This document shows, piece after piece, positions 9,625-41,820 of a stretch of 64,000 nucleotides of DNA. Below the pieces are notes generated by a model that was given only the letters and a program-made list of their open reading frames with translations, did not search any database and had not been told where the DNA came from. Within the stretch, counting starts at the first letter, position 1. Each line of letters opens with the position of its first letter. Position numbers and translations under genes: made by a program. The stretch comes from Mariprofundus sp. GTDB lineage: Bacteria; Pseudomonadota; Zetaproteobacteria; Mariprofundales; Mariprofundaceae. Where the stretch lies: positions 36,633 to 100,632 of the forward strand of contig JAJFLH010000029.1 in assembly GCA_021772775.1 (NCBI GenBank), written 5' to 3'.

Positions 9625-10755
9625 TTAATCATCATCTGTAAACAGATCGATTTCATCCGTCTGATTTTGGCCACAATGGGGGCAGTATTTATGTTCTGAA
9701 GATACCGGTTTGTCGCAGCCAAAACAGACTTTGGTCATATTCACCATACGCCCGACGCGCACTGCAATCACCGCTGTCATCATAGCCACCACACAGATAC
9801 CAATGAGAATCAATGCACCACCCAAAATCATGCCTCCAGCAGTATGCGGTACCAGATCACCATAACCAACTGTACTCATGGTAACCAGACTCCACCATGA
9901 GCCTACAAATGCATTTTGAAAGGTCTCAGGCTCAAGCATATAAGCCAGATTGCCGGCAAATATTGATACTGCTGTAATGGTCGCTAAAACGGCAAGAATC
10001 ATATGTACAGCATCGGATACAGAGCGTAAAAGCGTGCTTAAGACTGGGAAATACTGCGCCAGTTTCATAATGCGCAACAGGCGGAACAGGCGCATAATCG
10101 CTGAGCCTGGGCTACCAAAGAAAAGTGGAACAATCGTCAAAAAGTCAATAATTCCGTAAAAACCAAACACATATTTCCCGCGCTCTTTGGCTGCATAAAT
10201 CCGCAACAGGTACTCGATCAAAAAGACATACAACACGCCCATTTGAAAGTTGAAGATGATATCGCCCCACTGTGAGTGAATCTCCGGCACAGTATTCAGC
10301 ATAGAGATTACTACAGTAGCGAGAATCAGAGCGAGGATGCCGTAATTCACGACCTTGCCAGCCGTTGAACTCATATCAAACAGATAGCGGTTTAGCTCTT
10401 CTTTAAACTGTTTGGATTGCTTATGAGATTGATCAGAAGCTGATTGTTCAGCCACAGCGGCTTGTTGCATGGCCTCCATAGACAGCGGAGCTGTGTTTCC
10501 TGCATCTGCTGCAGACTGCTCCTCCAGCGCCTCTCTCTGCATACGCTGCATCGGTGTCTCATCCGGATCGGTGCTAGCTCCAGCCTGAATAGCATCAGCT
10601 TTTGCCTGTTCTTCTAAAGCTTCACGCTGCATTTTCTGCATAGGCGTTTCAACTTCTTCAGCTGATTCAGTTACCAGCGAGCCATCGGCTGCTGCTTGCT
10701 CAGCTTCAGCCTCTTTCTGCATCTCTGCGAGAGCTTTTCTTGTCGCTTCATCCAT
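9625..10755 (-). CDS. voltage-gated-type K+ channel with N-terminal repeats and C-terminal zinc ribbon
   Basis: S4-like IMRLFRLLRIMKLAQYFP; selectivity filter TMSTVGYGD; zinc ribbon CFGCDKPVSSEHKYCPHCG; tail DEIDLFTDDD. Confidence 0.85.
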   Translation of the reverse strand: MDEATRKALAEMQKEAEAEQAAADGSLVTESAEEVETPMQKMQREALEEQAKADAIQAGASTDPDETPMQRMQREALEEQSAADAGNTAPLSMEAMQQAAVAEQSASDQSHKQSKQFKEELNRYLFDMSSTAGKVVNYGILALILATVVISMLNTVPEIHSQWGDIIFNFQMGVLYVFLIEYLLRIYAAKERGKYVFGFYGIIDFLTIVPLFFGSPGSAIMRLFRLLRIMKLAQYFPVLSTLLRSVSDAVHMILAVLATITAVSIFAGNLAYMLEPETFQNAFVGSWWSLVTMSTVGYGDLVPHTAGGMILGGALILIGICVVAMMTAVIAVRVGRMVNMTKVCFGCDKPVSSEHKYCPHCGQNQTDEIDLFTDDD

Positions 10756-10802: not shown

Positions 10803-11780
10803 TTAAAATAGGTCAACATCACCTTCATCCATACTTTCCTGTGAAACAGGATTCGTATCTTCCAACTTCAGCGCCTGATGATATTCCATCATCGTAATAT
10901 GAATGACTGAGACACGGCTGGTATACTCTTCCATGGTGATATCAGATTGCTCCAACCCTTTCAGTCCATCGGTCAGAATCGACAACATACCTTCCATACG
11001 TTCCAGATGCCTATCGGTATAACCTAAGCTCTGTCTGGAAATATCTTCAAATTGAAGCGCTCGAATCGCTGATCCCAAATGCTGGCGAATGCCTGCATTA
11101 ACCTGTGTAACAGTAGATCGGCTATTCGACACAAAGGTATTGATATCGAAAAAGTGCTGTACGATCTGCTCCACTTTGGCTTTGGACGCAAACACTTCGT
11201 CCATATCCTTAGAGGCAATTTTATCAATTAAAGCGTGCGTTTTTTTAAACACAAACATTGTTTCTCGACTAAAATCAGCCTGCTGTTGCTGTTGCTCACG
11301 CAGCTGTATGGCAAATTGCTGCATGGTTCCTGCATCCATAGAGTCCGATTCAACGCAGAGCAGAAGCTTCTCCATCGTTGCATTTTTCTGTTTATCCATC
11401 TCTTCCATCTGTTCCAAACGGATACGCAGCACATCCATTGCTGTCAGTGCACGCAGATTATTTTTACTGCTAAGCAATAAAGTATCAACCAGATCCGTTA
11501 AAATCTGACTGGCACTTTCTGCCTGCTGAAAAATATTCTTATCGTTCTCAGCACCAACCACCTGCATCATCAGAGCAGTCATGGTATTCATCTGATCATT
11601 CGTGGCGGAATGAATAGAGCCAAAGGCATCATGCAAAGAAGCAATAGCATCTTCCAATAGCGACTTGATCTGATCGGTTTGAGAACGGATTGCGCCAACT
11701 TCAGATAATACGCTCTCTTGCATATCATGAAATACAGCAGACATCGATTGTGATAATTGAGAGTCAATTTTATTTTGCAT
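10803..11780 (-). CDS. soluble coiled-coil chemotaxis protein with CheZ-like motif
   Basis: Helical throughout, no TM; QFEDISRQ resembles the CheZ catalytic DFQDLTGQ; C-terminus DEGDVDLF. Confidence 0.6.
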   Translation of the reverse strand: MQNKIDSQLSQSMSAVFHDMQESVLSEVGAIRSQTDQIKSLLEDAIASLHDAFGSIHSATNDQMNTMTALMMQVVGAENDKNIFQQAESASQILTDLVDTLLLSSKNNLRALTAMDVLRIRLEQMEEMDKQKNATMEKLLLCVESDSMDAGTMQQFAIQLREQQQQQADFSRETMFVFKKTHALIDKIASKDMDEVFASKAKVEQIVQHFFDINTFVSNSRSTVTQVNAGIRQHLGSAIRALQFEDISRQSLGYTDRHLERMEGMLSILTDGLKGLEQSDITMEEYTSRVSVIHITMMEYHQALKLEDTNPVSQESMDEGDVDLF

Positions 11781-11790
11781 AGCTATATCC

Positions 11791-12858
11791 TCAGCAATTC
11801 AAATTTTTCATCAGCGCCTGTGCAATTTTCCCAAGCGGTTTTACATCTTTTGCTGCTCCCAACTTATAAGCAGCTCCCGGCATACCCCAAACTACACTGG
11901 AGGCTTCATCCTGAACCACGGTATAAGCACCGGCATCCAACATCTCTTTCATCCCTTCAGCACCATCTGCCCCCATACCTGTAAGCATCACACCAAGGGC
12001 ATTAGGACCAGCATTCTGAGCTACCGAACGAAACATCACATCGACGGATGGACGGAAACGATTCACTGGCGGGCCATCATTAAGACTACAGACATAACGG
12101 GCACCATCACGTTTCACCAACAGATGCCGGTCACCGGGAGCCAGATAGACATGACCTGGAATAATCTGCTCCCCATGCTCGGCCACTTTCACTTTCATCT
12201 GACAACAGGCATCCATACGTTGTGCATATGAATCACTGAATGCGCCTGGTAGATGCTGACTGATCACAATCGCAGGAAAACTGGAAGGCAACGACCTCAA
12301 TACTTCAGGTGTGGCCTGTGTTCCTCCAGTTGATGCACCCAACGCAACAATCTTCTCGGTTGTCGTAAAGTGGCGTTTACCCGTTTTTCTTGCCAGTACC
12401 GAATCAGTTGTATTACGTTCTGACACTTCAAGTAATTTTACCGGTGCGCGTGATTTTGCCCGCACATGTACTCCTGCAGCCATGCGTACCTTGGCAACAA
12501 TCTCATCGGCATAATCTTCCAGGCCACCACCAAGGGCCGCTGGTTTACTAACAAAATCAACAGCACCCAATTCCAGCGCATCCAGAGTGACATCTGCACC
12601 CTTCTGGGTTAATGATGAGACCATGACCACAGGCATAGGCCTTAAGCGCATGAGGTTCCCCAAAAAGGTTAGCCCATCCATACGTGGCATCTCTACATCC
12701 AGAGTTAATACATCAGGATTAAGCTGCTTAATCTTTTCTCGGGCTATTAATGGATCTTGAGCCGTTCCAACAACTTTAATACCTGCCGCACCATCGAGCA
12801 TTTTTGTCAGCAATTGACGCACCAGCGCTGAATCATCGATAATTAATACTTTGATCAA
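11791..12858 (-). CDS. cheB: chemotaxis protein-glutamate methylesterase/deamidase CheB
   Basis: Receiver plus methylesterase motifs [29 protein letters not shown]. Confidence 0.95.
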
Positions 12859-13481
12859 AACAGGTCGACCTCCCCACCAACAGGTGCATCTTCAATATTA
12901 CGAAAGTATTTCTTCTCTCGTTCAAGCACTGTGTCATTGTGCAAACTTTGTAATCTTTTCATCATTACACGTCCAGTTTTGGGGAAATAATAGATCTTGC
13001 GTGGATAATTACCGTTTAGGTCCTGTGAAACGACGGGTAAGCCCTCTTCACGCAGGTAATCGAGTACAAATTTAACATTACAATCACCAATATCTGACAT
13101 CCCGCGTACAATACGCCCGCCACCAAATAGCTTTACCTCAAGATTCTGGCGCATACCACCATGTGATAAAATATCATTAATCAGATGCTCCATGGCATAG
13201 TTACCAAAACGGGTAATATTATCCACCACACCACTTTTCCATTGTTTACGTTCACCTTCATGGATCGGTAACATGAAATGATTCATGCCACCTATACCAA
13301 ATACTCTATCCCTGATACAGGCCGACACACATGAGCCCAGTACAGTTACCACAGCCTCTGGTCGTGTGGTGACATAATATTCACCAGGCAACAGTTTGGC
13401 TGTAGGAATATCATGCACGTTATCGAAATAGGTATTGATGTGATCAAAACCAGGCAGACGCATTGAAACAGGAATGACCAT
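12855..13481 (-). CDS. cheD: chemoreceptor glutamine deamidase CheD
   Basis: [22 protein letters not shown] motifs; ATGA overlap with cheB; C-terminus GGEVDLF. Confidence 0.93.
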
Positions 13482-14327
13482 CTAGCTATCCTTTTTAATA
13501 TAAACAGATTTACCACATAAGGAATAACGCTCGCTCATATTGTGCATCGCCTCAGAGTGACCAAGAAAAAGATGCCCGCCGGGAATCAACAGATCAGCAT
13601 ATCGATTCATCAACATCTGCTTGGTAGGCATATCGAAATAGATAATCACATTACGACAGAAGATAATATCCAGAGGGCCACTCATCGGCCAATCCTGCAG
13701 CAGGTTAAGCTGCTTGAAATGGATCATATTCTGTAGCTCAGGACGCACTTTTACATGTGTCGGATGCTTATTGCTATTTTTCATAAACCAGCGTTTCACT
13801 ACGCGTTTATCTAAACTTTCAACTCGGGAAATATCATAGACACCCTTCTCGCCATGACTCAATACATCGGTATCCAGATCCGTCGCCAATATTTTAACAT
13901 CCCAGTCGGAAGGCACTGTACCTGCCACTGTCATAGCAATCGAATAAGGCTCCTCACCGGTCGAACAGCCAGCCGACCAGATACGAATGCGTCGACTAAC
14001 CCGATTGCGTTTCATTAATTCAGGCAATAGCGACTCTTTCAGATAATCAAAATGATGATTCTCACGGAAGAAGGAGGTCAGGTTTGTCGTGACGGCATTG
14101 ATAAATTCGCCAAACTCTTCGCTCTTATCACCCTTCTCAATCAGCTTAATGTACTCTCCGAATGAGCCCATATTGAGCTTGCGCAAACGACGCGACAAAC
14201 GCCCATAAAGCATGTCCTCTTTTCCTGCCGCCAGCTGAATGCCCGTATGTTTATCCACAATTTTACACAATTGTTCATAGTCTTTACGTGTAAATGTAAA
14301 TTCACGTTTGTTTTCAGGCACTGTCAA
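13482..14327 (-). CDS. cheR: chemotaxis methyltransferase CheR
   Basis: RIWSAGCSTGEEPYSIAM, DIIFCRNVIIYFD. Confidence 0.95.
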   Translation of the reverse strand: MTVPENKREFTFTRKDYEQLCKIVDKHTGIQLAAGKEDMLYGRLSRRLRKLNMGSFGEYIKLIEKGDKSEEFGEFINAVTTNLTSFFRENHHFDYLKESLLPELMKRNRVSRRIRIWSAGCSTGEEPYSIAMTVAGTVPSDWDVKILATDLDTDVLSHGEKGVYDISRVESLDKRVVKRWFMKNSNKHPTHVKVRPELQNMIHFKQLNLLQDWPMSGPLDIIFCRNVIIYFDMPTKQMLMNRYADLLIPGGHLFLGHSEAMHNMSERYSLCGKSVYIKKDS

Positions 14328-14682
14328 ACCTCATACCTTCGGACAAGCCCAGTCTTACAGCTGACTCCCGTAATTCGTCAGACACAGACACCCACTTGAT
14401 AGAGATCGCAAGTTGCCCAGCTTCTCTTACAAAAGCATAGAGTAGCTGCGTTCCAGCACTATCTACCCGGCTCAATGCTTCTGATTGAATAGTTACATCA
14501 ATATTGGCTTGTAAGATAGCAGATAACTTATGATGCATCGTTTCTGCTTCTACCATGCCAAGACTACCTTCAAGTACAATATCACCTGAAACTGGTTCCT
14601 TCTCAACGACATCTTCGCTTTCAGATGTACTCGCAACAATCCAATCCAGTGCTTCACCTTCAGTTGCATTCGTCATATTCAC
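14314..14682 (-). CDS. STAS-domain protein
   Basis: LEGSLGMVEAETMHHKL...VDSAGTQLLYAFVREA; overlaps cheR. Confidence 0.75.
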   Translation of the reverse strand: MNMTNATEGEALDWIVASTSESEDVVEKEPVSGDIVLEGSLGMVEAETMHHKLSAILQANIDVTIQSEALSRVDSAGTQLLYAFVREAGQLAISIKWVSVSDELRESAVRLGLSEGMRFDSA

Positions 14683-14711: not shown

Positions 14712-17519
14712 CTAAAACTCTTCCCACACATCATCGTCAGTACTCTGTTTCTTTTGTGGGCGTGGTAGGGGAGCCGCCGCCTGCTTGCGTGACTCTTTTG
14801 CTTTGGATCTCTGAGGTTGAGCTTTCGCTGCAGTCGCAACCGGAGATGTGGAACCTTCACCTAAATCAAACACACCAACCTGCTGGCGTAGTTCATTGGC
14901 CTGCTCGCTGAGGTTTTGACTCGCCGCTGCCGACTCCTCTACCAGTGCAGTATTTTGCTGCGTACCGGCATCGAGTTGGGCAATAGCTTTATTGATTTGA
15001 TCAATGCCCGATGTTTGTTCGGTGCTGGCTGCAGCAATTTCAGCAATAATGTTACCAACCTTAGCAACTGCACCGACAATCTCAGTCAATGCAGAACCCG
15101 ATTCATCCACCAGTCGACTACCTGCATCAACACTCACTACACTCTGATTGATCAATACCTTGATCTCTTTTGCAGCTTCTGCACTACGCTGAGCCAAAGA
15201 CCGGACTTCTGCTGCAACCACTGCAAAACCACGCCCCTGTTCTCCTGCACGTGCTGCTTCCACCGCAGCATTGAGTGCTAACAGATTCGTCTGGAATGCA
15301 ATCTCATCAATGACTCCGATAATGTCAGATATTTTTCGGCTACTGGCACTGATATTACTCATCGCTTCAACGGCCTGATTAGCAACCGATCCACCCTTCT
15401 CAGCCTGCTCCTTGGCATCAACAGCCAATTGATTCGCCTGACGTGAATTATCTGCCGTCTGTTGCACTGTACCGGCAATTTCTTCGATACTGGCTGCCGT
15501 CTCTTCCAAAGCTGCCGCTTGCTCCTGAGTACGTGTATTAAGCGTATTATTGCCTTCTGAAATTTCATCAGACCCAGTATCCACCTCTTTGGCAGTTCGG
15601 ATCACATTACCAATCACTTCAGACAGTTTTTCTGAGGTATCGTTGGTTGACTGCTTAATATCATCAAATGTGCCTTCGTAATCGTTGCCAATACGATGTG
15701 TTAAATCACCGCGATTGAGTGCATCTACAGCTTTGCCAATATCATCAAATGCCTGCTCCAGAGTACCGTTAAGCGTATTCACCATTTCAGACAGTTGGGC
15801 AAAGAAACCTGATTTATCATCCAGTCCTATGCGCTCTGAGAAGCTACCCTGTTGTGCTGCAGAGAAGACTTTAGCAATCTCTTTCTCCACTTTAATTTCA
15901 ACTGTACGGTCATCCCACTCCACAATTGTAGCAATACGCTCACCGGCTTCGTTCTGCACTGGAGTCGCCGCGACCTTCACTACAAAATCATCGTCAAACG
16001 CAATATCATCAGAAACATATTGCCCTTGAAGACTATCAAGTAGACGACGTTGATGAGATGGATCTTTATGGAACATATCAACATTAGTTCCCATCACCTT
16101 ATCTGCATCAAAGTCACTGATCTGCTTGCGAATAAATTCCTGATTGGATTTAAACAGGCGATCTGCTGCAAGATTGGTATAGAAGATATTGTAATCATTA
16201 TCAGCGATCTGCACTGGTGATGCGACCTGATCCAGAGCATTTTTAATTTTCAGCGCTTCATTGGCCTGTTCAGTCACCCGCAGAATGGAGTAGCCCTGAC
16301 ATGTCTGCATCGACTTCATGCTATCGAGCATATCGCCAATTTCATCGGTATCACCAATATCTACCCAATCAAAATAATTACCTTCCTGAATAGAGTCTAG
16401 CTTGTCAGATGTGTATTTCAGGCGTCGGATCAAACCACGCAGCAATATCCATGAAAACACCAGAGCCAATATAAGAGACATCACAGCCGATATGGTCGAA
16501 TGATTACGAATTTCCACAAAAGCCTCTTCAGCTCCTGATGCCTCTTCTTCGCTCACCCGTGTTTGAATGGTGCCAAACAGATGGTCAGTTTTTTGCATTT
16601 TTTCGTAATCTTCATTGTTGAGGTGAATAACGATTTCGTTAAACCTACCTTCCTCTTCTTCCTGCATCGCAACCTTCACAGGTTTTAGCGTGTTGCCAAT
16701 ATATGCCTCTACGGATTTGACGAATTCACTGGCTGCTGCTCTCTCCTCTTCGCCCAAATCAGCAGCTTCAATCAAGCCAATATCTTGTTTCACCTCAACT
16801 AACATCTCATCCATAAATTTGATGCTATGTTGATAGGCTTCCGGCTCCAAAATAGTCTGAGTCCTTTTCAAATCGATCATCACAGCTAATACCGACATAT
16901 TGATATTGGCTGCAGCCAATGCCACCCGGCGGTCATTGCCGGCCATCTTCAGATCATCATGCATCTCTCCCAAGCCAGCCAGAGTAAGCAACCATGAACC
17001 GGTTAATAGCACAGCAGTAAGCAGAATGGTTGCAGCAATTTTCTGCCATATTTTCATTCTTTTAATAAAATTAATTTTTTCTAACAGTGACTTTTTACCC
17101 AGAATAACCTTGCCGCTATTGATATCTGCATAGAGAGCTGCAGCTGCGTCGATTTGCTGACGTGTGGGTTTAGTGCGCACGGATAGATAACCGGTGATGC
17201 GACCATTTTCTACAATGCCCGTCACATGCGCATGAACCCAGTAAAAATCACCATTTTTAGCACGGTTTTTAACAAAACCTGTCCAGGGTTTACCGGCTTG
17301 AATGGTATCCCAGAGCCATTGGAATGCAGCTTCCGGCATATCTGGATGGCGAACAAGATTATGACTCTTACCAATCAGTTCTTCATTCGAATAACCACTG
17401 ACATTCATAAAACACTGATTAACTCCAGTGATCCGCCCTTTCAGATCTGTCTCCGAAATAATGACCTGCCCTTCAGCCATCACTATTTCGTTGTCTGTTA
17501 CCGGTAGATTTCTTTTCAT
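14712..17519 (-). CDS. methyl-accepting chemotaxis protein with Aer-like N-terminal PAS
   Basis: [28 protein letters not shown]; signalling hairpin [56 protein letters not shown]-terminus DDDVWEEF. Confidence 0.95.
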
Positions 17520-17568: not shown

Positions 17569-19941
17569 CTAAAATTCTTCCCACACATCATCATCTTCAA
17601 CCGTACCAGGCTTAGGATATGATGGTTTAGGCGCCTTCTTAACTACTGAGCTTTTCACATTACGGGGTGGTTTAGATGCCGATGAGAGCTTTTTTTTCGC
17701 TGGCCGAGTTCTGTCAACCTTGCTCTTAGGGTTTTGGTCCAGATTAAATATTGCCACTTGCTGACGTAGATTATTAGCCTGATCACTCAAGCGTTGACTA
17801 GCCGCAGCCGACTCTTCCACCAAAGCGGTGTTCTGCTGGGTACCTGAATCGAGTTGAGCAATGGCTTTATTGATTTGCTCAATGCCTGAAGACTGCTCAG
17901 TGCTGGCCGCTGCTATCTCAGCAATAATGTCTCCAACTTTGACAACAGCGCCAACAATCGTTGTCAAAGTGGCACCCGACTCATCAACCAAACGACTGCC
18001 AGCATCAACACTTTCCACGCTTTGATTGATCAACAGCTTAATCTCTTTAGCAGCTTCTGCACTGCGCTGAGCCAAAGAACGGACTTCAGCTGCAACCACA
18101 GCAAACCCACGTCCTTGCTCACCTGCCCTTGCCGCTTCCACTGCCGCATTCAAAGCCAACAGATTGGTTTGGAATGCAATCTCATCAATGACACCAATAA
18201 TATCGGCAATTTTACGACTACTGGCACTGATATCAGCCATCGCAGCAACGGCCTGTTCAGCAACTTTGCCGCCATTCTCAGCCTGCTCTCTGGCATCAAC
18301 CGCCAATTGATTGGCTTGGCGGGAGTTATCTGCCGTTTGCTGCACAGTGCCGGTGATCTCTTCAATACTGGCGGCGGTCTCTTCCAAAGCTGCAGCCTGC
18401 TCTTGTGTACGATTATTAAGAGTATTATTGCCTTCAGCAATTTCGTTGGAGCCAGCATCCACCTCTTCGGAAGAATCAATCACACTACCGATCACTACAG
18501 ATAGTTTTTCAGCCGTATTGTTGTTGGCCAGTTTAGCTGTCTCGAAAGAACCGCTATAACTATTGCTAATGCGATAGGTCAAATCACCGTCTTCCAAAGC
18601 CATCAAACCTTTAATAAGATCATTCACACCATTTTCAGTAATATCGAGCAAATCATTCAAAGAGTGACTCAAATCACACATCTGACCTTCAAGCGCGCTG
18701 GTGTCGATGCGTTTGGACAGTTCACCGCGTTTAGCTGCCTCAACCATACCTTTCACATCATGCTCAATCAGACTTTCAATACCCTTTTCTATGGTAACAT
18801 CTTGCCACTCGGTAACGATTGCAATGCGCTTACCGTTAGCATCGACAACTGGATTAGCAATAATTCTCACCCAACTACCACCAAGATTCATATCCTGCGA
18901 TGTATACGTTGATGATAGTTTATCCAACAAAGTACGCTGATGTGACGGGCTCTTATGGAACACATCAATGCATTTACCCATAAGTTTTTGTGCATCAAAG
19001 TTAGGCAACACCTTTTTAAAGTTGGCTTGATTAGCCTCCAACATGGCCTGCATAGATCTGTTGATATAGGTAATCTTATAATCATTATCAGCCATCATGA
19101 CATTGGCGGTGACACTATCGAGTGCCGTATTGATGCGCATAGCCTCTGCTTTGTCTGCATTAAGTTTGGCAAGCAGTTCACTCTGCATGCGCTCCATCGA
19201 ATGAAACAGACCACCGATTTCGTCAGAGCGATCTGTATGCAGGGTATCGACAAACTGCCCTGATGCAATTCGACTGGCCCCATTAGCAGCAAGCTGCAAC
19301 GGCTTGGATACTATGCGTTTGAGTAACAAATTGATCAGTATCAGCCCCACCATTAAAAGCAGCGCGTTGGTAATAATGCTTTTCCAAAATGCATTCTCAA
19401 TGGCTTTGTAAGTAGGCTCCAATGTCATACTGATGCGAACACCACCCAATGTCTCGCCTATTGAGCCATTATGGCATGACGTACAATCGACACCCCGGGT
19501 GTTTTCACTCGTCTTAAATGGTAAAGCAACGGTAATGGACCGCTGCCCATTGATCTCAGACTCTTCATTAACAATATTACCTGCCAGCACCTGCGTATCG
19601 ATACTATCAACCGCAGTTTCATTGGCTAAACCTTCACCATACTCCTCTGTGACACTATCACCACGCAGAAAGCGTACATCCAGCACATTATTCCCGGCTT
19701 TTAGCTTCTCCCTCAATGTTTCCCGCTCATCCATGCTGCCGCCCAACATCAGCATATTCAGACTATCAAAAACCATGGTGTTTTGATCAGAGACCTGTTG
19801 CTTGAACATCTCCAACACACGCTCCTTCTCATCGAGATGAGCCATGAACGTAGAAAACAGCATGATAGCAATAACAACAGCACATACGGCTGAAATAATT
19901 TTTGCAGAGAGTGATTGATGAAGCGCTTTGAGAACGAACAT
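17569..19941 (-). CDS. methyl-accepting chemotaxis protein with periplasmic c-type haem motif
   Basis: N-terminal TM; sensor domain with CTSCH (CXXCH); HAMP; PAS; MCP signalling domain; C-terminus DDDVWEEF. Confidence 0.95.
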
Positions 19942-19951
19942 ATTACTACCC

Positions 19952-20464
19952 CTAATCTGAAACTACATCAGCAGTGGGAGATGTTCTGGATTTATTGGAC
20001 AACACCCCTTCTGTCACTAATTTATTGATATCAAGCAGGATGACCATTTTCTCATTCATCGTAGCCAACCCGGTCACAAAATCGATGGAGATTGCCCCAT
20101 CCATCTCTGGTGGTGGTTGCATATCTTTTTGTGCAATGTCGTACACCTCGGAAACCGCATCAACAACAATACCCAACACACGCTCTTTACCGTCTGCCAG
20201 CACTTTAACGATAATAACCACAGTGGTCGGCCCATATTCGATCTTCTCCAAGCCAAAACGATCACGTAAATCCACAATAGGAATCACCACACCGCGCAAG
20301 TTAATCACCCCCAGTACAAAAGTGGGGGTATTAGGAATCGGCGTCGTATCTTCCCAGCCACGCAGCTCCTGCACAGTCAGGATATCTACGCCATATTCCT
20401 CTTGAGCCAACATAAACGTCAGATATTGTTGTATTTCCGCATCAGAGTTTGCTACTGCTACCAT
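19952..20464 (-). CDS. cheW: chemotaxis coupling protein CheW
   Basis: [54 protein letters not shown]. Confidence 0.95.
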
Positions 20465-20515: not shown

Positions 20516-22569
20516 TTACCTGCCATTTTCTGCTGCACGATTGGGTATCTTTTTCTGCTCACTTGAGAGCTCGATCAAACTGGAAATATCGAGAATGAGA
20601 GATACTGTGCCATCACCCAGAATAGTGGCGCCGGACAAACCTGGCACACGTTCATAGTTGGTCTCCAGGCTTTTAATAACCACCTGTTGCTGACCCAATA
20701 GGTCATCGACTAACAGCCCCACACATTTATCTGCCCACTCGACAATAACCAGTAAAGAACCGGCTTTATCATGAACACTTACCTCGGAGCCGGAGCTACT
20801 CGTAGCAAACAGATTAGAGAGACTGACTATTGGAATATATTCATCACGCAATCGATAAACTTCGGCATCACCAGCCAATGTGCTGACAGCTTCTGCTTTC
20901 ATTTGTAATGATTCAACGATGACACTCAGTGGTAACACATAGGTTTGATCATCAACAGTAAGCAATTGACCATCGAGCACAGCCAATGTTAGAGGCAATC
21001 GAATAGTGAATACTGTTCCCTCACCAAGCGTTGAGCGAACCCCAACATTGCCACCAAGACTCTCGATATTTCGACGCACCACATCGAGACCAACACCACG
21101 GCCTGAAATATCACTCAAAGCCTCAGCGGTAGAAAAACCAGCTGCAAACAATAACAGATAAACCTGTTCATCACTGAGCACATCTGTCTCTTTGATCAGT
21201 CCCTTTTCAACACCTTTATTAAATAACTTATCACGATCGAGTCCACGCCCATCATCAGAGACTTCGACTACAATGCTACCACCCTGGTGAAAAGCCTTGA
21301 GCCGAACGCAGCCCTCTTCTTCCTTACATGCATTCAAACGCTCTTCTGGTCCTTCAAGACCATGGTCGAGCGAATTACGAACCAGATGCACCAATGGATC
21401 ATTAATTTTTTCCATCACAGTCTTGTCCATTTCGGTATCTTCACCGACCAGCTCAAGACGTATTTTCTTATCCAGCTTCTGGCTCAGATCGTGCACCATG
21501 CGCGGAAAGCGGTTGAATGCAAATGAAATAGGCTGCATACGTACTTTCATCACCGCTTCTTGAATTTCGCGTGAATTGCGCTCCAACTCTTCCAAGCCTT
21601 CACGTAAACGAACCAGTTTAGTCATATCAAAGTCTTCGCCCAATTGGCCAAGCATCGACTGGGTAATCACCAGCTCTCCAACCATCGCAATCAATTCATC
21701 AATGCGATTGGTGTCGACTCGAATATTGGTGGATTGAGCTGCTGGGGCTTTATCAGTCGGACGGCGTGGGCCGGAGCGTCGATCATTCTGACGACGGTCT
21801 TCGGTCTCAACTTCAACCCTACGATCACCCGCACGGCGATCAGACTCTTTGCGTTCAGGAAAAATGCCTTTGAGCACCAAATCACATTCATCTTCGACCC
21901 ACTCAAAGATTTCAGTAATCTGAGCTTCTTCGACATCTTCACCGAGCAATTCAAATAACATTGTTCCGGATTCATGCTGGCAAATGATGGTAGGCTGGAA
22001 TCATCCATACTTAGCGTCATCTCACCGAGTTCATCTAACTCTGTAATAAGTAAAGCAGGATCATTGCCTGTAGTCAGAAGATCATCATGCGGCGTAAACT
22101 CAATATGCCAGCCCTGTCGTCTATCGCTGGCTGCATCGCTGCTACTTTCATCATCAGGAGTGTCAGATTTTACACTTGATTCCATGCCACAAACTTTTTC
22201 CAGCTTCTGCTGCAGCTCCTGCATATGCTCAACATCGGGCTCTTCGTTGTTTTGATAGGCACTCATCAATGCACGCATCTCATCGACAGACTCCAGCAGT
22301 ATATTGACTACAGCCTGATCCGCATCACGTTTACCTTCACGCATCTCATCCAGAAGCCCTTCCATAATATGGGTGAATGAAGCCAAAGCAGAAAATCCGA
22401 AGGTAGCACTGCCACCTTTGATTGAATGAGCAGCCCGAAAAATATCATTTACAACATCCAGATCCGTGCCGCCATCGCTCATACCGAGCAGGCCGGACTC
22501 CATTGTATCCAACCCTTCAAAGCTCTCCTCATAAAATATCTGTTTAAATTGGTCGAGGTCGATACTCAT
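20516..22569 (-). CDS. cheA: chemotaxis histidine kinase CheA, split across two frames near 21930-21961
   Basis: N-terminal Hpt ORF 21691..22569 (FRAAHSIKGGSATFG) and C-terminal kinase ORF 20516..21961 (LVHLVRNSLDHGLE, GRGVGLDVVRRNIESLGG); homologous content switches frame around YLNC / LLGEDVEEAQITEIFEWV. Confidence 0.9.
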
Positions 22570-22574
22570 TGGAT

Positions 22575-22940
22575 CTACCTAAGAACTTTTTTGATCGTCA
22601 TCAGTAATTTATCAGGATCAAACGGCTTCACCAGCCAACCTGTAGCACCAGCAGCTTTACCTTCCATTTTCTTGTCTTTGCCTGCTTCCGTCGTAAGCAA
22701 AAGAATTGGAGTAAATTTTAATGACGGTATTCCACGCAATTCACGCGTCAAAGTAATGCCATCCATATTCGGCATATTGACATCGGTAATGACCAGCGCG
22801 AATCCAGTCTGTTGTTTTGCTATTGCAAGTGCAGCATCACCATCATCAGCCTGAACAACTTCATGTCCTGAGCTCTCCAAAGTGAAGGCAACCATTTTTC
22901 GCATACTGGCCATATCATCCACAATTAAAATTTTTGCCAT
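22575..22940 (-). CDS. cheY: chemotaxis response regulator CheY
   Basis: MAKILIVDDMASMRKMVAFTLESSGHEVVQADDG...DVNMPNMDGI...WLVKPFDPDKLL. Confidence 0.93.
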   Translation of the reverse strand: MAKILIVDDMASMRKMVAFTLESSGHEVVQADDGDAALAIAKQQTGFALVITDVNMPNMDGITLTRELRGIPSLKFTPILLLTTEAGKDKKMEGKAAGATGWLVKPFDPDKLLMTIKKVLR

Positions 22941-22983: not shown

Positions 22984-22999
22984 AGCAACTATCAGGCCA
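22984..22999 (-). promoter_or_regulatory. candidate sigma-54 promoter upstream of cheY
   Basis: Reverse strand TGGCCTG-ATAG-TTGCT against consensus TGGCACG-N4-TTGCW. Confidence 0.4.
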
Positions 23000-23046: not shown

Positions 23047-25920
23047 TCAAAACAACTCAACATCATCATCACCACCAAGTGTGATCAGCTCGACAATCTC
23101 ATTCCGACTCTCTTCCCATGTGGCTTGCGAATATGGTGTACCATTCGGATTGATCACAATTTGATTCTGACGGTGGCAGGTAAACGTGGTCTGACGTGGA
23201 AACAAGGCGTTAATTGTATAACCGACAGGATCTTTCTTTTTATAGCGTTTATTCATCGTGTAACCGATCCAGATATAACCAGCCTCCCTCAAGCTATAAA
23301 ACAGCGCCATGGGATCTTCAGGCAGAGGAGTTGATACCGTCAAAATCTTCAAGCCCATATCGGCATCTTCGCCGGAATCAGACATCATTTTATCCAGCAT
23401 ATGACGGAAAGCGCGTTTACTCTTACAGTCATCATCTTTTTCAACCGCATACATATGAAAAGAGGTATGAGCGACAAACACACCATAAAACTCATTTGGT
23501 ACTGTCACATGCACTTCTGTAGGCAGATCGTACTTACTTAACTCTTTCTGAAGCAAGCTGGCCTGCTCCTGATTATCCAACAGAGGAAATATCTGCGGCT
23601 GCACATCTTCATCTCTACAGATTGTAACAATATGCGATAAAACAGTTGTAATCATCGCATAGGCCGACTCATTCATACACATCGGACGCGATAGAATAAC
23701 ATGGTTGGAATTGGCGATATGACTACGCAGGCGCTCCATATCATGAAAATTCCATGCTTCGATATGAATAGTTACAAGATCTTCCAGACCAGGCTCTTCA
23801 GACAGACGTTTTTCAAGGTACTCCTGCTCACTTTTACTCTGTTCGGGGGTCAAGTCATCAAAAATAACCAGATCCAGCTCATGATAAAAGCGCAATAGCC
23901 GCTTCAACAACAGCGGCAAACTTCCCACCCAGCCCATCACCAACAATTGCATTTTTTCTTCCGGTTCCTGCAGCACCAGACCAAGTGTATCTAAATCATC
24001 AGGGCAAACCGCCCCCTCTTCCGAGGCAATAGCAGGCTCGCGAATACAAAAGACAGTTTCATCGTAAAGTGCAGAGTCACTAATGGCGATACCAATCAAC
24101 GCTCGCACCTGCAACGACTCCACATATTGATCATCCAGACTATAGAGCGGTATGGTCTCCCAATCTTCAGATACAATACCGAAAAGTATCACACCACGTT
24201 CAAAAAGCTGAGACTGAACCCCCAAAATACCAGCACTGTATTTTTCATCGGGTGAAAACAGCTGCCATGCATTGGTCTCATTGCGTTCCAGTTTAGAATT
24301 CCAATTCACCAGATGAGTGGATGATTCATCCAACAACTCCGGAATCATCAGGCGCTGTAGCACTTGATCAAAATCACTATAGCGCAACACATTACACAGC
24401 GCTGTTGCCCTAAAATCGGCTTCGGACATAACAACAGTGGGTTCATTATAATGCCCCACATTATCCCATCCCACCTGTAACATATGCTGATGCGTGTTTA
24501 AACGCGGGTAATCCATGCCCGGAATCGCAAGGCTGAGTTTAATACGCCTGTTCTCAGTACGTACTGCCAACATGCTATAAAAGGCATGTGACAAAGAGAC
24601 CGATTCACTCTCTTTTTCAGGTAAAACAATCAAAGCCTGTTTTGCCTCTGCAATATTGATGCGCTTAAGATCCACGGAGGAGTCAATCTGACCCTGGCGA
24701 TAAGTAATCCACTTCTCATTGATCAATTCAGCCGGTGGATGGTCTGCATGATGCAACAGCACCACTTTCAAACGGGTAAATGTGCGATCAGAGATAATGC
24801 GCAATTGATCCAGAATATAGGGCAATGCAGGCGACCAACCGAGAATCGTCATATGATTTTTTATCAACAGATCTTCATTACGCAGACGACGCATCAAACC
24901 GGATACAATATTGGCTCCAATACCAATGAAAAATGCAAAAATAAATACACCCAGGATTACAGCCATAATAGAGAACACTGCAACCGTCATATTATCTGGA
25001 TAAATCACAGAGTTACCGGGATCTGTCAGCAGTCGGAAAGCAAACCAGATTGATGATAAAATTTCATTTTCAATAGGCTTGTGATACAAGCCCATGGTGT
25101 AATCAAAATCCTCAAACAGGAAGTGAGCCAGTACACCGCCACCAATGGACAAAATAGCCAAAAACAGAACAATCAAATTGATCTCCTGCATGAACTGCCC
25201 TTCTCTTAATACATCTCTCAAGTTGCGAATGATAATTTGCCAAGGCCTTAACAAACGAACCAACCTGAGCATACGCAACGCACCGCTATACGCGAAACCG
25301 GTAATAAATGGCAGCATGAAAATGGTCGCTATAAAGTCCAGCCACCAGAAACCCCATTCTGAATACCTATCCAGCTTGGTTTCAAATTTCATTCCACGCA
25401 TCACAATAAGACGCAGCGCCAACTCCACAAAAAAGAAAATAATAATAGCAATCAAAAAAGCCCCATCCGCAAAAAATGAGACCAGAATGATCAGTGAAAT
25501 TAACATACCATAGGTCGGTGAAAACATCGCGCTATGCAGATCAAAATAGCGCACAAACCGCAGCGAACGTAACAGATAGACACCGCGTAGAAGACGGGCC
25601 ATAGCAATGTTTTCAGCCGCAATTTGGAGATCAAAAACAGTCACCAATAGTGATGACACCGCAATGATATCAATCACCAACAGTAGCAGGTCAATTTTTT
25701 GATTGGTTGAAGAGCGATATGGGTTGATCTTAATTTTACGCTGAAACAGCATAATCCGAGCAACAATCTCCATTGAAAAGAGTGCAAACAGAACGGTCGC
25801 AAGCATTTGATTATGGGTAAACGACAAGGCTATCAAGCCCATCATAAAGAACCCAAAGCGCGGATGGCCTAAGACCCTTTCCAAGTGATGATATTTTAAT
25901 GCCCGATCAATGGAACTCAA
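23047..25920 (-). CDS. large cation-channel protein: voltage-gated-type TM domains plus RCK/TrkA-N-like cytoplasmic regions
   Basis: Multiple TM helices with arginine-rich segments (LRGVYLLRSLRFVRYF, LRMLRLVRLLRPW), cytoplasmic Rossmann-like segments (HMTILGWSPALPYILDQL; LLVMGWVGSLPLLLKRL), C-terminus GGDDDVELF. Confidence 0.75.
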   Translation of the reverse strand: MSSIDRALKYHHLERVLGHPRFGFFMMGLIALSFTHNQMLATVLFALFSMEIVARIMLFQRKIKINPYRSSTNQKIDLLLLVIDIIAVSSLLVTVFDLQIAAENIAMARLLRGVYLLRSLRFVRYFDLHSAMFSPTYGMLISLIILVSFFADGAFLIAIIIFFFVELALRLIVMRGMKFETKLDRYSEWGFWWLDFIATIFMLPFITGFAYSGALRMLRLVRLLRPWQIIIRNLRDVLREGQFMQEINLIVLFLAILSIGGGVLAHFLFEDFDYTMGLYHKPIENEILSSIWFAFRLLTDPGNSVIYPDNMTVAVFSIMAVILGVFIFAFFIGIGANIVSGLMRRLRNEDLLIKNHMTILGWSPALPYILDQLRIISDRTFTRLKVVLLHHADHPPAELINEKWITYRQGQIDSSVDLKRINIAEAKQALIVLPEKESESVSLSHAFYSMLAVRTENRRIKLSLAIPGMDYPRLNTHQHMLQVGWDNVGHYNEPTVVMSEADFRATALCNVLRYSDFDQVLQRLMIPELLDESSTHLVNWNSKLERNETNAWQLFSPDEKYSAGILGVQSQLFERGVILFGIVSEDWETIPLYSLDDQYVESLQVRALIGIAISDSALYDETVFCIREPAIASEEGAVCPDDLDTLGLVLQEPEEKMQLLVMGWVGSLPLLLKRLLRFYHELDLVIFDDLTPEQSKSEQEYLEKRLSEEPGLEDLVTIHIEAWNFHDMERLRSHIANSNHVILSRPMCMNESAYAMITTVLSHIVTICRDEDVQPQIFPLLDNQEQASLLQKELSKYDLPTEVHVTVPNEFYGVFVAHTSFHMYAVEKDDDCKSKRAFRHMLDKMMSDSGEDADMGLKILTVSTPLPEDPMALFYSLREAGYIWIGYTMNKRYKKKDPVGYTINALFPRQTTFTCHRQNQIVINPNGTPYSQATWEESRNEIVELITLGGDDDVELF

Positions 25921-26104
25921 AGCTGCCTCCTACTTCATTCCCCACCTATCCCCTAGTGAGTAGACGGTAAGTCAATGCTTCTTCATTTTTCATGAAACTC
26001 GGGATAGTATCACCGCGTATTTCAATTAACCTGAATGTGCTTAACTCAACACATATTCAGCAAGATGCTTGCCAAAACCATTTTTTTTATTGCAGAGGTA
26101 TAAG

Positions 26105-34845: not shown

Positions 34846-36291
34846 TCAGTTCCGCCAAAACTCTGGGATCAACAATACAAAAAATGTATAGATCTCTAAA
34901 CGGCCAAGCACCATTCCAAAAATCAAAACTGATTTTGCCATATCCGGTAAAGATTGATAATTATCAGCCGGGCCCACCTGACCAAAACCTGGTCCCGTGT
35001 TGGTAATACAGGCTGCAGCTGCAGTAAATGATGTCACCATATCCACGCCGGAAATTGCCACCAACACTGCAATAATAAGATAACAGACAATAAATAGAAC
35101 AGCGAAACCCCACAAAGCTTCCGTCACATTCGATGTAATACGATGACTACCCATTTTCACATGAATCACACCATGCGGGTGCACCAGACGACGGATTTCA
35201 CGTACGCCCTGACGAAAGAGCAGCAGAATACGCACCACTTTCATACCACCACCGGTTGAGCCCGCGCATGCACCGACAAACATCGTCAATAACAATAAGA
35301 GCGTTGCACCAGCTGGCCACTGGCCATAGTCACTAACAGCAAAACCTGTTGTTGTAGCAACGGCCACCACATTAAACAACACATCAATGGCTTTATCATT
35401 CTCACTTGAAGCTAGGATAAGACTGATCAATATCACCAGCACAGAGATCCAGATGATGTATGTGCGGAACTCTTCATCTCTAAAATAGGCACGCAGAGAA
35501 AAGCCCTGCAAAGCAGCTGCAAAATGGAGTGTAAAATTGATACCGGCCAGCACCATAAAAAACACACCCATCAATTTCAGCGTAGGACTATCAAAATAAC
35601 CAAAGCTGGCATCATGAGTAGAAAAACCACCAATGGCGACCGTACACATCGCATGATTAATCGCATCAAATGTATTCATGCCACCAAAGCTATAAGCCAC
35701 CGCACAAACAATCGTCATACCGAGATAGAGATACCACAGTAGTTTAGCCGTTTCCGTCACCCGCGCAGTCAATTTATCTTTCACCGGCCCCGGTGTTTCA
35801 GCCTTAAACAGCTGCATGCCACCCACACCCAATAACGGCATCACCGCAACGGCCAATACAATGATCCCCATGCCACCCAACCACTCCTGCATAGAACGCC
35901 AAAACAGAATCGAACGGGGTAGATCATCCAGACCAGAGAGCACTGTCGCACCTGTCGTAGTCAAACCGGATGCCGACTCAAACATGGCATCTACCATGGA
36001 TGGCAATGTACCCGTTGTCCAAAACGGTACTGCGCCAATCAAGGCCAGAACCAACCAGGCCAATGCAACAATCAAAAAGCCATCACGATGGGTTAATCGC
36101 TTCGGTGCACCACCGCCAAAACGCATCATTGCCGCCCCCAATAGAATCACGATACCACCGGCTTCTAAAAACTCGGCAACATGCCCTGCATCATAATACA
36201 GCGCCACCAGTGCAGGCACCATCATGCTGGCGCCATACAGCATTACCAGCACCCCAATCGTCCAAATTACGCCCTTAGGATGCATCAGCAC
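34846..36291 (-). CDS. trkH: Trk-type K+ uptake protein TrkH
   Basis: ASGLTTTGATVLSGLDDLPRSILFWRSMQEWLGGMGIIVL; GACAGSTGGGMKVVRILLL. Confidence 0.95.
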   Translation of the reverse strand: MLMHPKGVIWTIGVLVMLYGASMMVPALVALYYDAGHVAEFLEAGGIVILLGAAMMRFGGGAPKRLTHRDGFLIVALAWLVLALIGAVPFWTTGTLPSMVDAMFESASGLTTTGATVLSGLDDLPRSILFWRSMQEWLGGMGIIVLAVAVMPLLGVGGMQLFKAETPGPVKDKLTARVTETAKLLWYLYLGMTIVCAVAYSFGGMNTFDAINHAMCTVAIGGFSTHDASFGYFDSPTLKLMGVFFMVLAGINFTLHFAAALQGFSLRAYFRDEEFRTYIIWISVLVILISLILASSENDKAIDVLFNVVAVATTTGFAVSDYGQWPAGATLLLLLTMFVGACAGSTGGGMKVVRILLLFRQGVREIRRLVHPHGVIHVKMGSHRITSNVTEALWGFAVLFIVCYLIIAVLVAISGVDMVTSFTAAAACITNTGPGFGQVGPADNYQSLPDMAKSVLIFGMVLGRLEIYTFFVLLIPEFWRN

Positions 36292-36315
36292 TACCCATCA
36301 TTTTATAGTTATCCA

Positions 36316-37689
36316 TCAGAAAAATTCCAAATGTACTTCGAATAGCGCTTCAACAGCAGCAACCGATGCACTTGTTGTGACAATCAGCACATGATCTTGA
36401 CTTTCAACCTGCACATCACCATTGGGCACAATCACTTTCCCTTTACGCAAAATAGCCCCCACCACAGTATCTTCCGGTAAAACCAGCTGACGCAGTGGCG
36501 TACTCAAGATTGCACTGGTTTCCAACGCCTCAGCTTCCAGCACTTCCAGATTACCATCAGCCAGCGATGCCATGCCGTGAATTCTACCCTTACGCACAAA
36601 ACTCAATATAGATGCTACAGTCGACAAACGCGGTGATACCGTAACATCCAGGCCAATCTGACGTACCAACTGTCCATAAATAGAACGATTCACCAATGTC
36701 ACCACATGCGGTACACCATAACGTTTAGCGATTAAACTACTGAGGATATTGGTCTCATCATCATTGGTCATGGCCAGAAAATCATCCATTTTATCAATGT
36801 TCTCTTCTTCCAATAACTTCTGATCCAAAGCATCACCTTGAATCACTACAACATCATCAAACTGGTCAGAGAGCCACTCCGCTCTCTCCCTGTTGAATTC
36901 AATCACCTTCACATAAGAGCCTGCTTTTTCCAGCTCTTTGGCCACAATAAAGCCGATGTGACCACCACCAACCATCAACACATTACGCCCCTGTGGCGAA
37001 TGACAGGTGAAATTAAGCACCCGCATCAATGGATCCAACTGCTCTTTGGCCACAGCCACATAAATACTGTCGCCCGCCAAGAGTACAGTGTTCCCCTTGG
37101 GCACACTCCAACGACCATTATGTTCGTGAGCCACAACATAGATACGCAGTTCACCCATCACTTCCGGCAGTTCCATCAGCGAGAGACCAGCTAAATTACT
37201 TTTGGGGCGTACAGTAAATTCAACCAACTGGATGGCTCCACCAAAAAACTCTCTCGCATCCAGTGCACTCGATACATTCAAGCGCCCCATCACCACCTTA
37301 GCCGCTTCCCCTTCCGGTGAAATAATCACATCAATAGGCAAATCATCCCGGCCAATCAGACCTGGATAATTGGCATAATCCGGCTCACGCACACGGGCCA
37401 GTTTAGTCGGCACTTTAAACAGCGAATGTGCCACCTGACAGGCCAGCATATTCACTTCGTCATTGGTCGTTACGGCAATCAGAAGATCCGCATTCTCCGC
37501 CCCGGCCTGCTCCAGCACAGATGGGTGAGATGCCATGCCAGATACCGTTTTCACATCCATCGAGTCTGCAATCACTTGCAAGCGATCCGTATCCAGATCA
37601 ACCACAGAGACATTATTACCCTCTGCAGATAAGCGGCTAGCAATATGATAACCCACCTCTCCAGCTCCTAGAACGACGACATTTTTCAT
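36316..37689 (-). CDS. trkA: Trk system K+ transport regulatory subunit TrkA
   Basis: Two TrkA-N domains: VVVLGAGEVGYHIASRLSAEGNNVSVVDLD; VLMVGGGHIGFIVAKELEKAG. Confidence 0.95.
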   Translation of the reverse strand: MKNVVVLGAGEVGYHIASRLSAEGNNVSVVDLDTDRLQVIADSMDVKTVSGMASHPSVLEQAGAENADLLIAVTTNDEVNMLACQVAHSLFKVPTKLARVREPDYANYPGLIGRDDLPIDVIISPEGEAAKVVMGRLNVSSALDAREFFGGAIQLVEFTVRPKSNLAGLSLMELPEVMGELRIYVVAHEHNGRWSVPKGNTVLLAGDSIYVAVAKEQLDPLMRVLNFTCHSPQGRNVLMVGGGHIGFIVAKELEKAGSYVKVIEFNRERAEWLSDQFDDVVVIQGDALDQKLLEEENIDKMDDFLAMTNDDETNILSSLIAKRYGVPHVVTLVNRSIYGQLVRQIGLDVTVSPRLSTVASILSFVRKGRIHGMASLADGNLEVLEAEALETSAILSTPLRQLVLPEDTVVGAILRKGKVIVPNGDVQVESQDHVLIVTTSASVAAVEALFEVHLEFF

Positions 37690-39107
37690 GGGACTTCCTT
37701 CTCAGGGGGCTGTAACCCGAATGATTTAATTTTGCGATGCAACTGGCTGCGCTCCATACCGATATCGGCAGATGTACGACTGATATTCCAATCATGTTTA
37801 TTCAGATGCTGCAGCAGATAGACGCGTTCAAAGGCCTCGCGTGCGTCATGAAAGCTATCCGCTTCCACATTCGAAACATCATCTCTTCCAGGCATATCCG
37901 CTATAGATGTTGCATGCGCTGCTGTTGCTTGAGTAGAAGATTGATCCGGTGGCAACATCGTTGCCATGGTCATCTGTTCTCCAGGCATCAGAATATGGCA
38001 CCGTTCGATATAGTTGCGCAGTTCACGCACATTACCTGGCCAGCCATATAATTTAAGCGCTTCGATAACATCAGCCTCAAAACGCACCGCTTCTCCACCT
38101 AGAATTTTAGCTTGCTCATCAGCCAGCGTTTCAAGCAGTAGTGGTAAATCTTCCAAACGCTCCCGCAATGCAGGCATACGAATAGAGACCACATTCAGGC
38201 GATAATAAAAATCTTCCCTGAGCTTCTCTTCACGCAACACCTGATCAAGATCACGTGTACTGGCTGCAATCAAACGTACATTACTGGCCATCGAGGTAGG
38301 ATTACCCAAACGCTGAATCACACGCTCCTGCAACACGCGTAACACCTTCGCCTGTGCTGCCATGCTCAACTCTGTCACCTCATCGAAAAAAAGCGAACCT
38401 TGATGAGCTGTTTCAAAACTCCCACGCTGCGCATGCAAAGCACCTGTAAAAGCGCCTTTTTCGTGACCAAACAGCTCAGAGTCCATACGTCCGGCTGCTA
38501 TACTGGCAGTATTCACCTCAACAAAGGGAGCCTCTTTTCGTCTTGAAGCAAGATGCAACATTCTCGCAGCCACAGCTTTGCCGGTACCATGCTCACCGAG
38601 CAGTAACACCGGCGCATCAGATAGGGCAATACGCTTTATCAACGCTCTTACCTCAGCAATTACAGCACTATTACCGATTAACTCCTGACGGCTATGATGC
38701 ATCACATCCTGCCGTTTCAAATCTCTATTTTCCTGCTCCATTCTACGTTTTTGCACTGCATTACGGACAATAATCATCAAACGATCAAATGAGAGTGGTT
38801 TTTCAACAAAATCAAATGCGCCTAGTCGGGTTGCGCGAACAGCCGTATCAATGGTGGCATGGCCAGACATCATAATGACAGGCAGGTGAGCATCCATCTG
38901 CTGAATCCGGCTTAAAGTTTCTAGGCCGTCGATTCCGGGCATCCAAATATCGAGCAACACACAATCTACCGGCTGCTTACGCAAACGGGCCACGGCCTCT
39001 TCGCCAGAGGCCGCACTCACCACCAGATACTCTTCATCCTCAAACAAACCCTGCAGGGAGTCACGAATCGGTTCTTCATCATCAACAATCATGATACGTG
39101 CAGTCAT
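37686..39107 (-). CDS. ntrX: sigma-54-dependent response regulator, NtrX-like
   Basis: Receiver; AAA+ GAFTGA (GHEKGAFTGALHAQRG); Fis-type HTH; ATGA overlap with the kinase. Confidence 0.88.
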   Translation of the reverse strand: MTARIMIVDDEEPIRDSLQGLFEDEEYLVVSAASGEEAVARLRKQPVDCVLLDIWMPGIDGLETLSRIQQMDAHLPVIMMSGHATIDTAVRATRLGAFDFVEKPLSFDRLMIIVRNAVQKRRMEQENRDLKRQDVMHHSRQELIGNSAVIAEVRALIKRIALSDAPVLLLGEHGTGKAVAARMLHLASRRKEAPFVEVNTASIAAGRMDSELFGHEKGAFTGALHAQRGSFETAHQGSLFFDEVTELSMAAQAKVLRVLQERVIQRLGNPTSMASNVRLIAASTRDLDQVLREEKLREDFYYRLNVVSIRMPALRERLEDLPLLLETLADEQAKILGGEAVRFEADVIEALKLYGWPGNVRELRNYIERCHILMPGEQMTMATMLPPDQSSTQATAAHATSIADMPGRDDVSNVEADSFHDAREAFERVYLLQHLNKHDWNISRTSADIGMERSQLHRKIKSFGLQPPEKEVP

Positions 39108-41242: not shown

Positions 41243-41256
41243 TACATTCAGCCTTG

Positions 41257-41820
41257 TCACTGCAGCGTGAACTCCTTTTGCATCTTGGCTGCCGTGGATG
41301 GCCACAAACCAGACCACCAGGCATCATTAGCATCACCAATATGAATATTTACATTCACACCTACGCGGTACGGTGTTTTCACCAACAATAGACTTCGATC
41401 CAGTACTGGAAAATGATTCAGACTGGTGAGAAACGCGATCGCACTATCAATACTGTATACACGATGGGAAATACCACTGGAGTGATCAATCAACAACCAG
41501 CTCCGGGTCAATAGATCCGGCTCAACACGCCGAATAACTGTAATATCGCCTATATTGTCATTCAACCAATATTCACGAACCTTGCCCACTTTCACTCGCC
41601 ATTCTGTCGCCACGGCAATCCCATCTTGCAACGGCTGCTGAAACATTTCACCTTCGACAGCCAACTGAGCAGTGCAATAAATCACCTTCGCATCGGTTTG
41701 AACCTGCAAACTCTCAGAAGCATCAGCAGCAAAACTCACCGGCACAAACAGCACTGCAGCCATCATGACTGCAATCCAAGTCGAAAGAAATTTATAACAT
41801 TTATAAAACAAATTAGACAT
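41257..41820 (-). CDS. DUF4390 family protein
   Basis: VEGEMFQQPLQDGIAVATEWRVKVGKVREYWLND...DLLTRSWLLIDHSSG. Confidence 0.75.
   Translation of the reverse strand: MSNLFYKCYKFLSTWIAVMMAAVLFVPVSFAADASESLQVQTDAKVIYCTAQLAVEGEMFQQPLQDGIAVATEWRVKVGKVREYWLNDNIGDITVIRRVEPDLLTRSWLLIDHSSGISHRVYSIDSAIAFLTSLNHFPVLDRSLLLVKTPYRVGVNVNIHIGDANDAWWSGLWPSTAAKMQKEFTLQ

Follow-up and report, generated by a model that had tools for sequence, protein, structure and literature searches.

An F7-type chemosensory gene cluster of a Zetaproteobacterium from the Mariprofundus group (genome G000) is headed by a gene for a large membrane protein, here denoted CHAN1, which raises the question of what an ion channel might do next to a chemotaxis operon. 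We analyzed the surrounding stretch of 64,000 nucleotides (the window, G000:C22:36633-100632; Table 1). A first-pass annotation, made from the sequence alone, described the 957-aa product as a multi-TM channel with arginine-rich S4-like helices and two cytoplasmic Rossmann-like segments, resembling the RCK-gated or CASTOR/POLLUX type. The open reading frame is a real gene: it begins with TTG, has a GGAGG sequence shortly 5' of the start, and has full-length relatives with 40-79% identity in many genomes. No Pfam or NCBIfam family matched CHAN1 at the cut-off, the matches to Slo-like_RCK and Ion_trans_2 being sub-threshold only.

Table 1. Features of the chemosensory locus, in positions of the window
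Feature	Position	Strand	Evidence or remark
Sigma54-type promoter-like site upstream of CHAN1	26059..26074	-	TGGC-N7-TTGCT
CHAN1, 957-aa double-VSD, single-pore, tandem-RCK channel	23047..25920	-	ORF, AlphaFold2, homologues
First voltage-sensor-like domain S1-S4, residues 20-132	25525..25863	-	AlphaFold2 helices, invariant S4 Arg
Second voltage-sensor-like domain, residues 135-240, homologous to first	25201..25518	-	hhalign
S5-P-S6 pore, residues 243-347	24880..25194	-	AlphaFold2; filter alignment
Selectivity filter TDPGN	25012-25026	-	filter alignment
RCK1-like domain, about residues 357-630	24031..24852	-	profile matches to DMI1/CASTOR/MthK/BK; Foldseek
RCK2-like domain, about residues 656-950	23071..23955	-	AlphaFold2; Foldseek to Slo1 and CASTOR gating rings
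Tail DDDVELF, predicted disordered	23050..23070	-	sequence; pLDDT < 50 for last five residues; pattern
Sigma54-type promoter-like site between CHAN1 and cheY	22984..22999	-	
cheY	22575..22940	-	76-92% identical in relatives' F7 clusters
cheA, N-terminal frame (Hpt)	21691..22569	-	ORF, Pfam, comparison with relatives
cheA, C-terminal frame, out of frame with first	20516..21961	-	intact in relatives
cheW	19952..20464	-	Pfam CheW
MCP ending WEEF	17569..19941	-	ORF
PAS-MCP (Aer2-like) ending WEEF	14712..17519	-	ORF
STAS-domain protein	14314..14682	-	Pfam
cheR	13482..14327	-	conserved in F7 clusters
cheD, tail EVDLF	12855..13481	-	NCBIfam PRK13487
cheB	11791..12858	-	ORF, relatives
McpA-like protein, MCP tip lost; tail SQESMDEGDVDLF	10803..11780	-	alignment A1
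CHAN2, Kv-type channel (TVGYGD) with zinc ribbon, Ion_trans protein	9625..10755	-	
CHAN2 near-C-terminal motif DEIDLF	9640-9657	-	

Two voltage sensors ahead of one pore

The structure prediction that the first-pass annotation had proposed recovered the pore, the S4-like helices and both RCK domains. The AlphaFold2 model, built from an alignment (A3) of 45 CHAN1 relatives (pLDDT 81.9, pTM 0.79), contains ten TM helices and a pore helix followed by two Rossmann-like RCK domains, in the order S1-S4, S1'-S4', S5-P-S6, RCK1, RCK2 and a disordered tail. Profile comparison detects homology between the two S1-S4 blocks (hhalign E 5.7e-13, probability 97.9); as a control, the first block was compared with the pore in this way, without a match. 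The arginine-rich S4-like helix is present twice, with arginines at i+3 spacing in both copies: in the first, R109, R112, Y115, R118, R121 and R124 are invariant in 45 of 45 sequences; in the second, R216 and R219 are invariant in all 45, and R222 in all 41 short members. Both blocks keep the S2 glutamate and the S3 aspartate (E51 and D84; E166 and D195). Most short members have TDPGN as their filter, one subclade has MAAGN, and the filter of long members is DPG-like; the K+ signature TVGYG is absent from every filter in the family alignment. The channel is presumably a tetramer. To our knowledge, no channel with two tandem voltage-sensor domains (VSDs) ahead of one pore has been described, and a literature search that covered few subscription journals returned none.

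A profile search of PDB sequences ranked the RCK1 domains of DMI1 (the top match, E 0.0012) and CASTOR first, followed by MthK and BK, and a Foldseek search with the CHAN1 model ranked Slo1 and the CASTOR gating ring first. The best full-length Foldseek matches are BK/Slo1 structures (TM 0.40-0.44, E down to 2e-16), which, like CHAN1, combine a VSD, a pore and two RCK domains on one chain, but Slo has a single VSD (S0-S6) and a K+ filter, in contrast to the two VSDs and TDPGN of CHAN1. The tandem RCK gating ring resembles that of CASTOR (6o7a, TM 0.73 by target, 13% identity), and CASTOR, POLLUX and DMI1 share with CHAN1 a filter other than TVGYG; these plant nuclear channels, however, have four TM helices (PMC6697748), compared with ten in CHAN1, and lack a che tail, whereas CHAN1 has one. 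Thus, the kinship with RCK-gated and CASTOR channels seen by the first-pass annotation stands, but membership in the CASTOR/POLLUX family does not, given that CHAN1 shows no match to the Pfam family Castor_Poll_mid and that its membrane part differs by the tandem duplication of the voltage sensor. Among bacteria, NaVBP of Bacillus pseudofirmus OF4 is reportedly linked with chemotaxis and MCPs and is likewise of the voltage-gated type; unlike CHAN1, it has a single VSD and no RCK domain, and its gene is not known to lie in a che or fli operon.

The F7 cluster and its two channels

The gene content and order of the cluster (Aer2-like MCP, cheD, mcpA-like gene) agree with those of stage-1/2 F7 clusters (PMC7184735), the order in the window being cheY-cheA-cheW-Aer2-like-cheR-cheD-cheB-mcpA-like, with the addition of a STAS protein. 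It differs from the described clusters in that channels lie at its ends, that they share the tail of McpA and CheD, and that the McpA-like protein, as elsewhere in Zetaproteobacteria, has lost the MCP hairpin tip and kept the tail (alignment A1). The operon was initially taken to be complete, which is correct for gene content, but in this assembly a frameshift near 21934-21960, either an assembly error or a real mutation, breaks cheA into two frames; in five relatives the gene is intact and encodes 686-702 aa. The second channel, CHAN2, closes the cluster as the first-pass annotation had stated. Channels adjoin F7 clusters repeatedly in the relatives, but the bracketing by two channels is one of several arrangements: CHAN2, not CHAN1, adjoins the F7 cheY in G024 (L186 14236-15087) and G077 (L256 3-794), and both lie beside it in G064. 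Residues 36-85 of CHAN2 consist of N-terminal repeats, ETPMQ[KR]MQREALEEQ, the number of which varies among relatives. Elsewhere in the window (34846-41317), sequence reading indicates TrkH- and TrkA-like K+ uptake genes, preceded on their strand by an NtrY/NtrX-like two-component pair.

Distribution and flagellar context of the family

In a scan of 85,462 species (one genome per species, with two peptide patterns that distant members could escape), the CHAN1 family was found in Zetaproteobacteria only, at 55 loci; some match to the family is present in 56 of 78 Zetaproteobacterial genomes. In these iron-oxidizing bacteria, most relatives with visible neighbours sit in a flagellar operon, fliH-fliI-fliJ-motE-channel-fliK-flgD, which recurs whole or in part at 25 loci in 24 genomes (motE is our name for a gene whose coiled-coil product matches MgtE_N weakly); for Mariprofundus ferrooxydans PV-1, Pfam supports the flagellar neighbours. 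The F7 setting was found in G000, G002, G005, G014, G022, G064 and G085, and in G022 the two settings are joined, with fliHIJ-motE-channel-cheY-cheA-cheW running continuously along one contig stretch (L035). The fliHIJ-motE operon of G000 lacks the channel, which fits relocation of the channel gene to the che cluster. Given the predominance of the flagellar setting among relatives, we reject a strict linkage of the channel to che genes. The association with chemosensing, which the first-pass annotation had emphasized, is supported for the tailed sublineage; the majority of relatives are indeed encoded apart from che genes, as its counter-argument would have it, yet their usual place is the flagellar operon. 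Mariprofundus erugo P3 is a cultured isolate with a tailed, che-linked channel. G030 has two channel genes, one by fliK-flgD and one by fliH-fliI-motE (L053, L068), as if a split flagellar operon had kept one channel per part.

A long paralogue of 1200-1700 aa, with 23-29% identity to CHAN1 across the channel part, lies between an MCP gene and cheY of a second che operon; a fusion of MCP and channel at this locus was considered and rejected, the two being separate genes. The representative in G000 (1434 aa; L069 8406-12710, G000:C33) has two C-terminal helical-hairpin repeats (DxxxQ) with a long EEVAEEVAEEV stretch between them, and that of G039 has three repeats along with a free-standing copy right before cheY (L047 7020-7373). 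The McpA-like protein and these repeats have in common a DxxxQ element and a helical make-up. We do not claim that they are CheZ: Pfam CheZ matched no protein of any Zetaproteobacterium, hhalign against CheZ gave short or weak matches only, Foldseek with the hairpin returned nothing significant, and these searches did not establish such an identity. A further paralogue (G000:C22:16992-19805; L050 3627-6530), about 17 kb before the window on the same contig, lies opposite an MCP gene and ends in DDDDIFF, not VELF.

These neighborhoods bear on the simplest alternative, namely that the channel serves ordinary ion homeostasis, its gene hitch-hiking in motility clusters and its tail having no signalling role. 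In its favor, one channel subclade adjoins leuS, without motility neighbours, other paralogues likewise lack such neighbours, and no channel was found in the complete genomes G008 and G012, which have fliI, so that the channel is not required for flagella. We nevertheless consider this explanation improbable, given that channel genes with 40-80% identity recur in fli and che operons, and given the distribution of the tail: in G000 it is common only to che proteins and one GGDEF protein, and no genome without F7 encodes a tailed channel.

A tail shared with chemotaxis proteins

The VELF tail of CHAN1 reported by the first-pass annotation exceeds chance expectation. At the DNA level, the pattern [DE][VI/M][DE][LF]F-stop has four matches in the 3.1-Mb genome, namely CheD, the McpA-like protein, CHAN1 and one GGDEF protein, three of them in this che cluster. 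CheD, the McpA-like protein, CHAN1 and CHAN2 all carry the short motif [DE][VI][DE]LF; in CHAN2 orthologues of F7 genomes it takes the form D[E/N/D]I[D/Q]LF, followed by four residues to the end. Across relatives, the tail occurs on CheD, McpA-like proteins, channels, GGDEF proteins, a few MCPs and a related helical family. GGDEF-type proteins with a DVDLF or DIELF tail (L167 3323-4462 in G000:C25, L168, L172, L173 and L128) are candidate c-di-GMP outputs of the same system.

Twelve tailed CHAN1 genes were found in 11 genomes, all 11 of which encode F7 CheD, including G065, G071 and G086, where the tailed channel has no che genes nearby and CheD is encoded elsewhere in the genome. Among channel-bearing genomes, counted by hand and including several incomplete ones, a tailed channel is present in 11 of 15 with CheD vs 0 of 33 that have a short channel but no CheD (Fisher p 6e-8, uncorrected for kinship). 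In the channel tree the tail was gained once, so many independent gains can be rejected and the Fisher statistic overstates independence, reflecting one event followed by retention and co-transfer. The CheD and channel identities vary in parallel (Spearman 0.82, 10 genomes), and this parallelism, together with the patchy spread of the tail over three genera, is better read as co-inheritance or co-transfer.

McpA C-termini are highly conserved, with a valine at the second pentapeptide position; they do not bind CheR, and their role is unclear (PMC7184735). The tail could be a variant CheR/CheB pentapeptide tether that recruits an adaptation enzyme, with the channel either modified or merely parked: x-V-x-x-F resembles x-W-x-x-F, the window MCPs end in DDDVWEEF, and the McpA end has been treated as a variant pentapeptide (PMC7184735). 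However, because of the valine none of the four P. aeruginosa CheR proteins can interact with the McpA end (PMC7184735), and the CHAN2 motif stops four residues short of the C-terminus, so we hold this possibility to be remote. Because [DE][VI][DE]LF resembles both the EIDALL motif of FliM, which is bound by CheY-P (PMC9126983), and the ends of divergent CheZ proteins (SQEDIDALLASFD or QSEIDALFN), CheY appears, on motif resemblance, to be the likeliest partner, with a chance that we put slightly short of even. A literature search found nothing on a C-terminal motif common to CheD and CheZ.

Alternatively, the channel could be an input: a voltage or ligand sensor that the tail, acting as an array-localization tag and not as a CheY target, holds in or near the array, where it would report the energy state of the cell to CheA (energy taxis). 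The presence of the tail on McpA-like proteins and some MCPs, the position of the long paralogue next to an MCP, and the two voltage sensors and two RCK domains, which suit a sensor, all agree with this. CHAN1, however, has no MCP-like signalling part, and CheD and the GGDEF proteins, which carry the tail as well, are not receptors; overall, we regard this alternative as rather unlikely.

Transcription of the channel and cheY

As noted in the first-pass annotation, CHAN1 lies just upstream of cheY on the same strand, and the gap is 106 bp. A sigma54-type promoter-like site is located between the two genes, and hence the shared strand is no proof of co-transcription. Such sites precede cheY as a strict match in 5 of the 6 relatives tested and as a near match in the sixth: in the window, G022, G014, G002 and G085, TGGC-N7-TTGCW is located in the gap from channel to cheY; in G024 too it precedes cheY, and G064 has the near match. 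Upstream of CHAN1, within about 160 bp or less, a site is present for 6 of the 9 tailed channels tested, window included (G000, G014, G064, G002, G065, G071). Counted on both strands, the strict pattern has a frequency of about 0.08 per kb. Independent transcription had been named at the outset as an argument against a link with the che operon; the predicted sites indeed suggest separate starts for the channel and cheY, which are probably two sigma54-type units, separate but commonly controlled. The 106-bp gap showed no terminator-like site, and therefore read-through may occur.

A proposed role in chemotaxis

We consider the initial observation to be real, and its context to be stronger than the first-pass annotation described: a new channel architecture, tied to flagellar and F7 chemosensory genes, with a shared tail of docking type. 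Our preferred explanation, to which we give somewhat better than even chances, is that CHAN1 is a flagellum-associated, voltage- and ligand-gated channel docked through its tail to an F7 component, most likely CheY. We infer the partner, the ion, the gating and the direction of signalling, next to the modelled architecture, the genomic contexts and the tail distribution, which are observed. Under this scheme, the tail motif would dock its bearers to one common F7 partner; the binding of CheY to the tail and of a ligand to the RCK domains would tune channel opening, and the voltage sensors would read the membrane potential; the resulting ion flux would shift the potential, or a local ion level, felt by the flagellar motor and the sensory array. 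The modelled architecture with its RCK kinship, the flagellar operon loci, the joint contig of G022, the long paralogue in the second che operon, the range of proteins that bear the tail motif, the confinement of tailed channels to genomes with F7 CheD even where unlinked, the parallel CheD and channel identities, the CHAN2 motif in F7 genomes, the sigma54-type sites ahead of both channel and cheY, the EIDALL motif as a CheY-P target, and the conserved McpA C-terminus count for this explanation. The single gain of the tail, the channel-less G008 and G012, the leuS-adjacent members, and the tail on MCPs, which fits an array component better than CheY, count against it. A bolder version strikes us as a long shot: the F7 array and flagellum would be coupled to two channels that form an excitable pair, one a CASTOR-like cation channel whose voltage sensors are doubled, the other a Kv channel, each docked through a CheY-type tail, and the chemosensory output would then be partly electrical.

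Literature searches returned nothing on chemotaxis and ion channels in Mariprofundus, and nothing on motility and membrane potential in Zetaproteobacteria. Two questions named as open in the literature are what the ancestral F7 system has as its output and what the conserved McpA C-terminus does (PMC7184735); for these, a tail common to CheD, McpA-like and GGDEF proteins and two ion channels provides a concrete, testable list of targets. A channel gene lying within flagellar operons would link motility with membrane potential, and the shared tail suggests that in this bacterium an ion channel has become wired into the machinery of chemotaxis.
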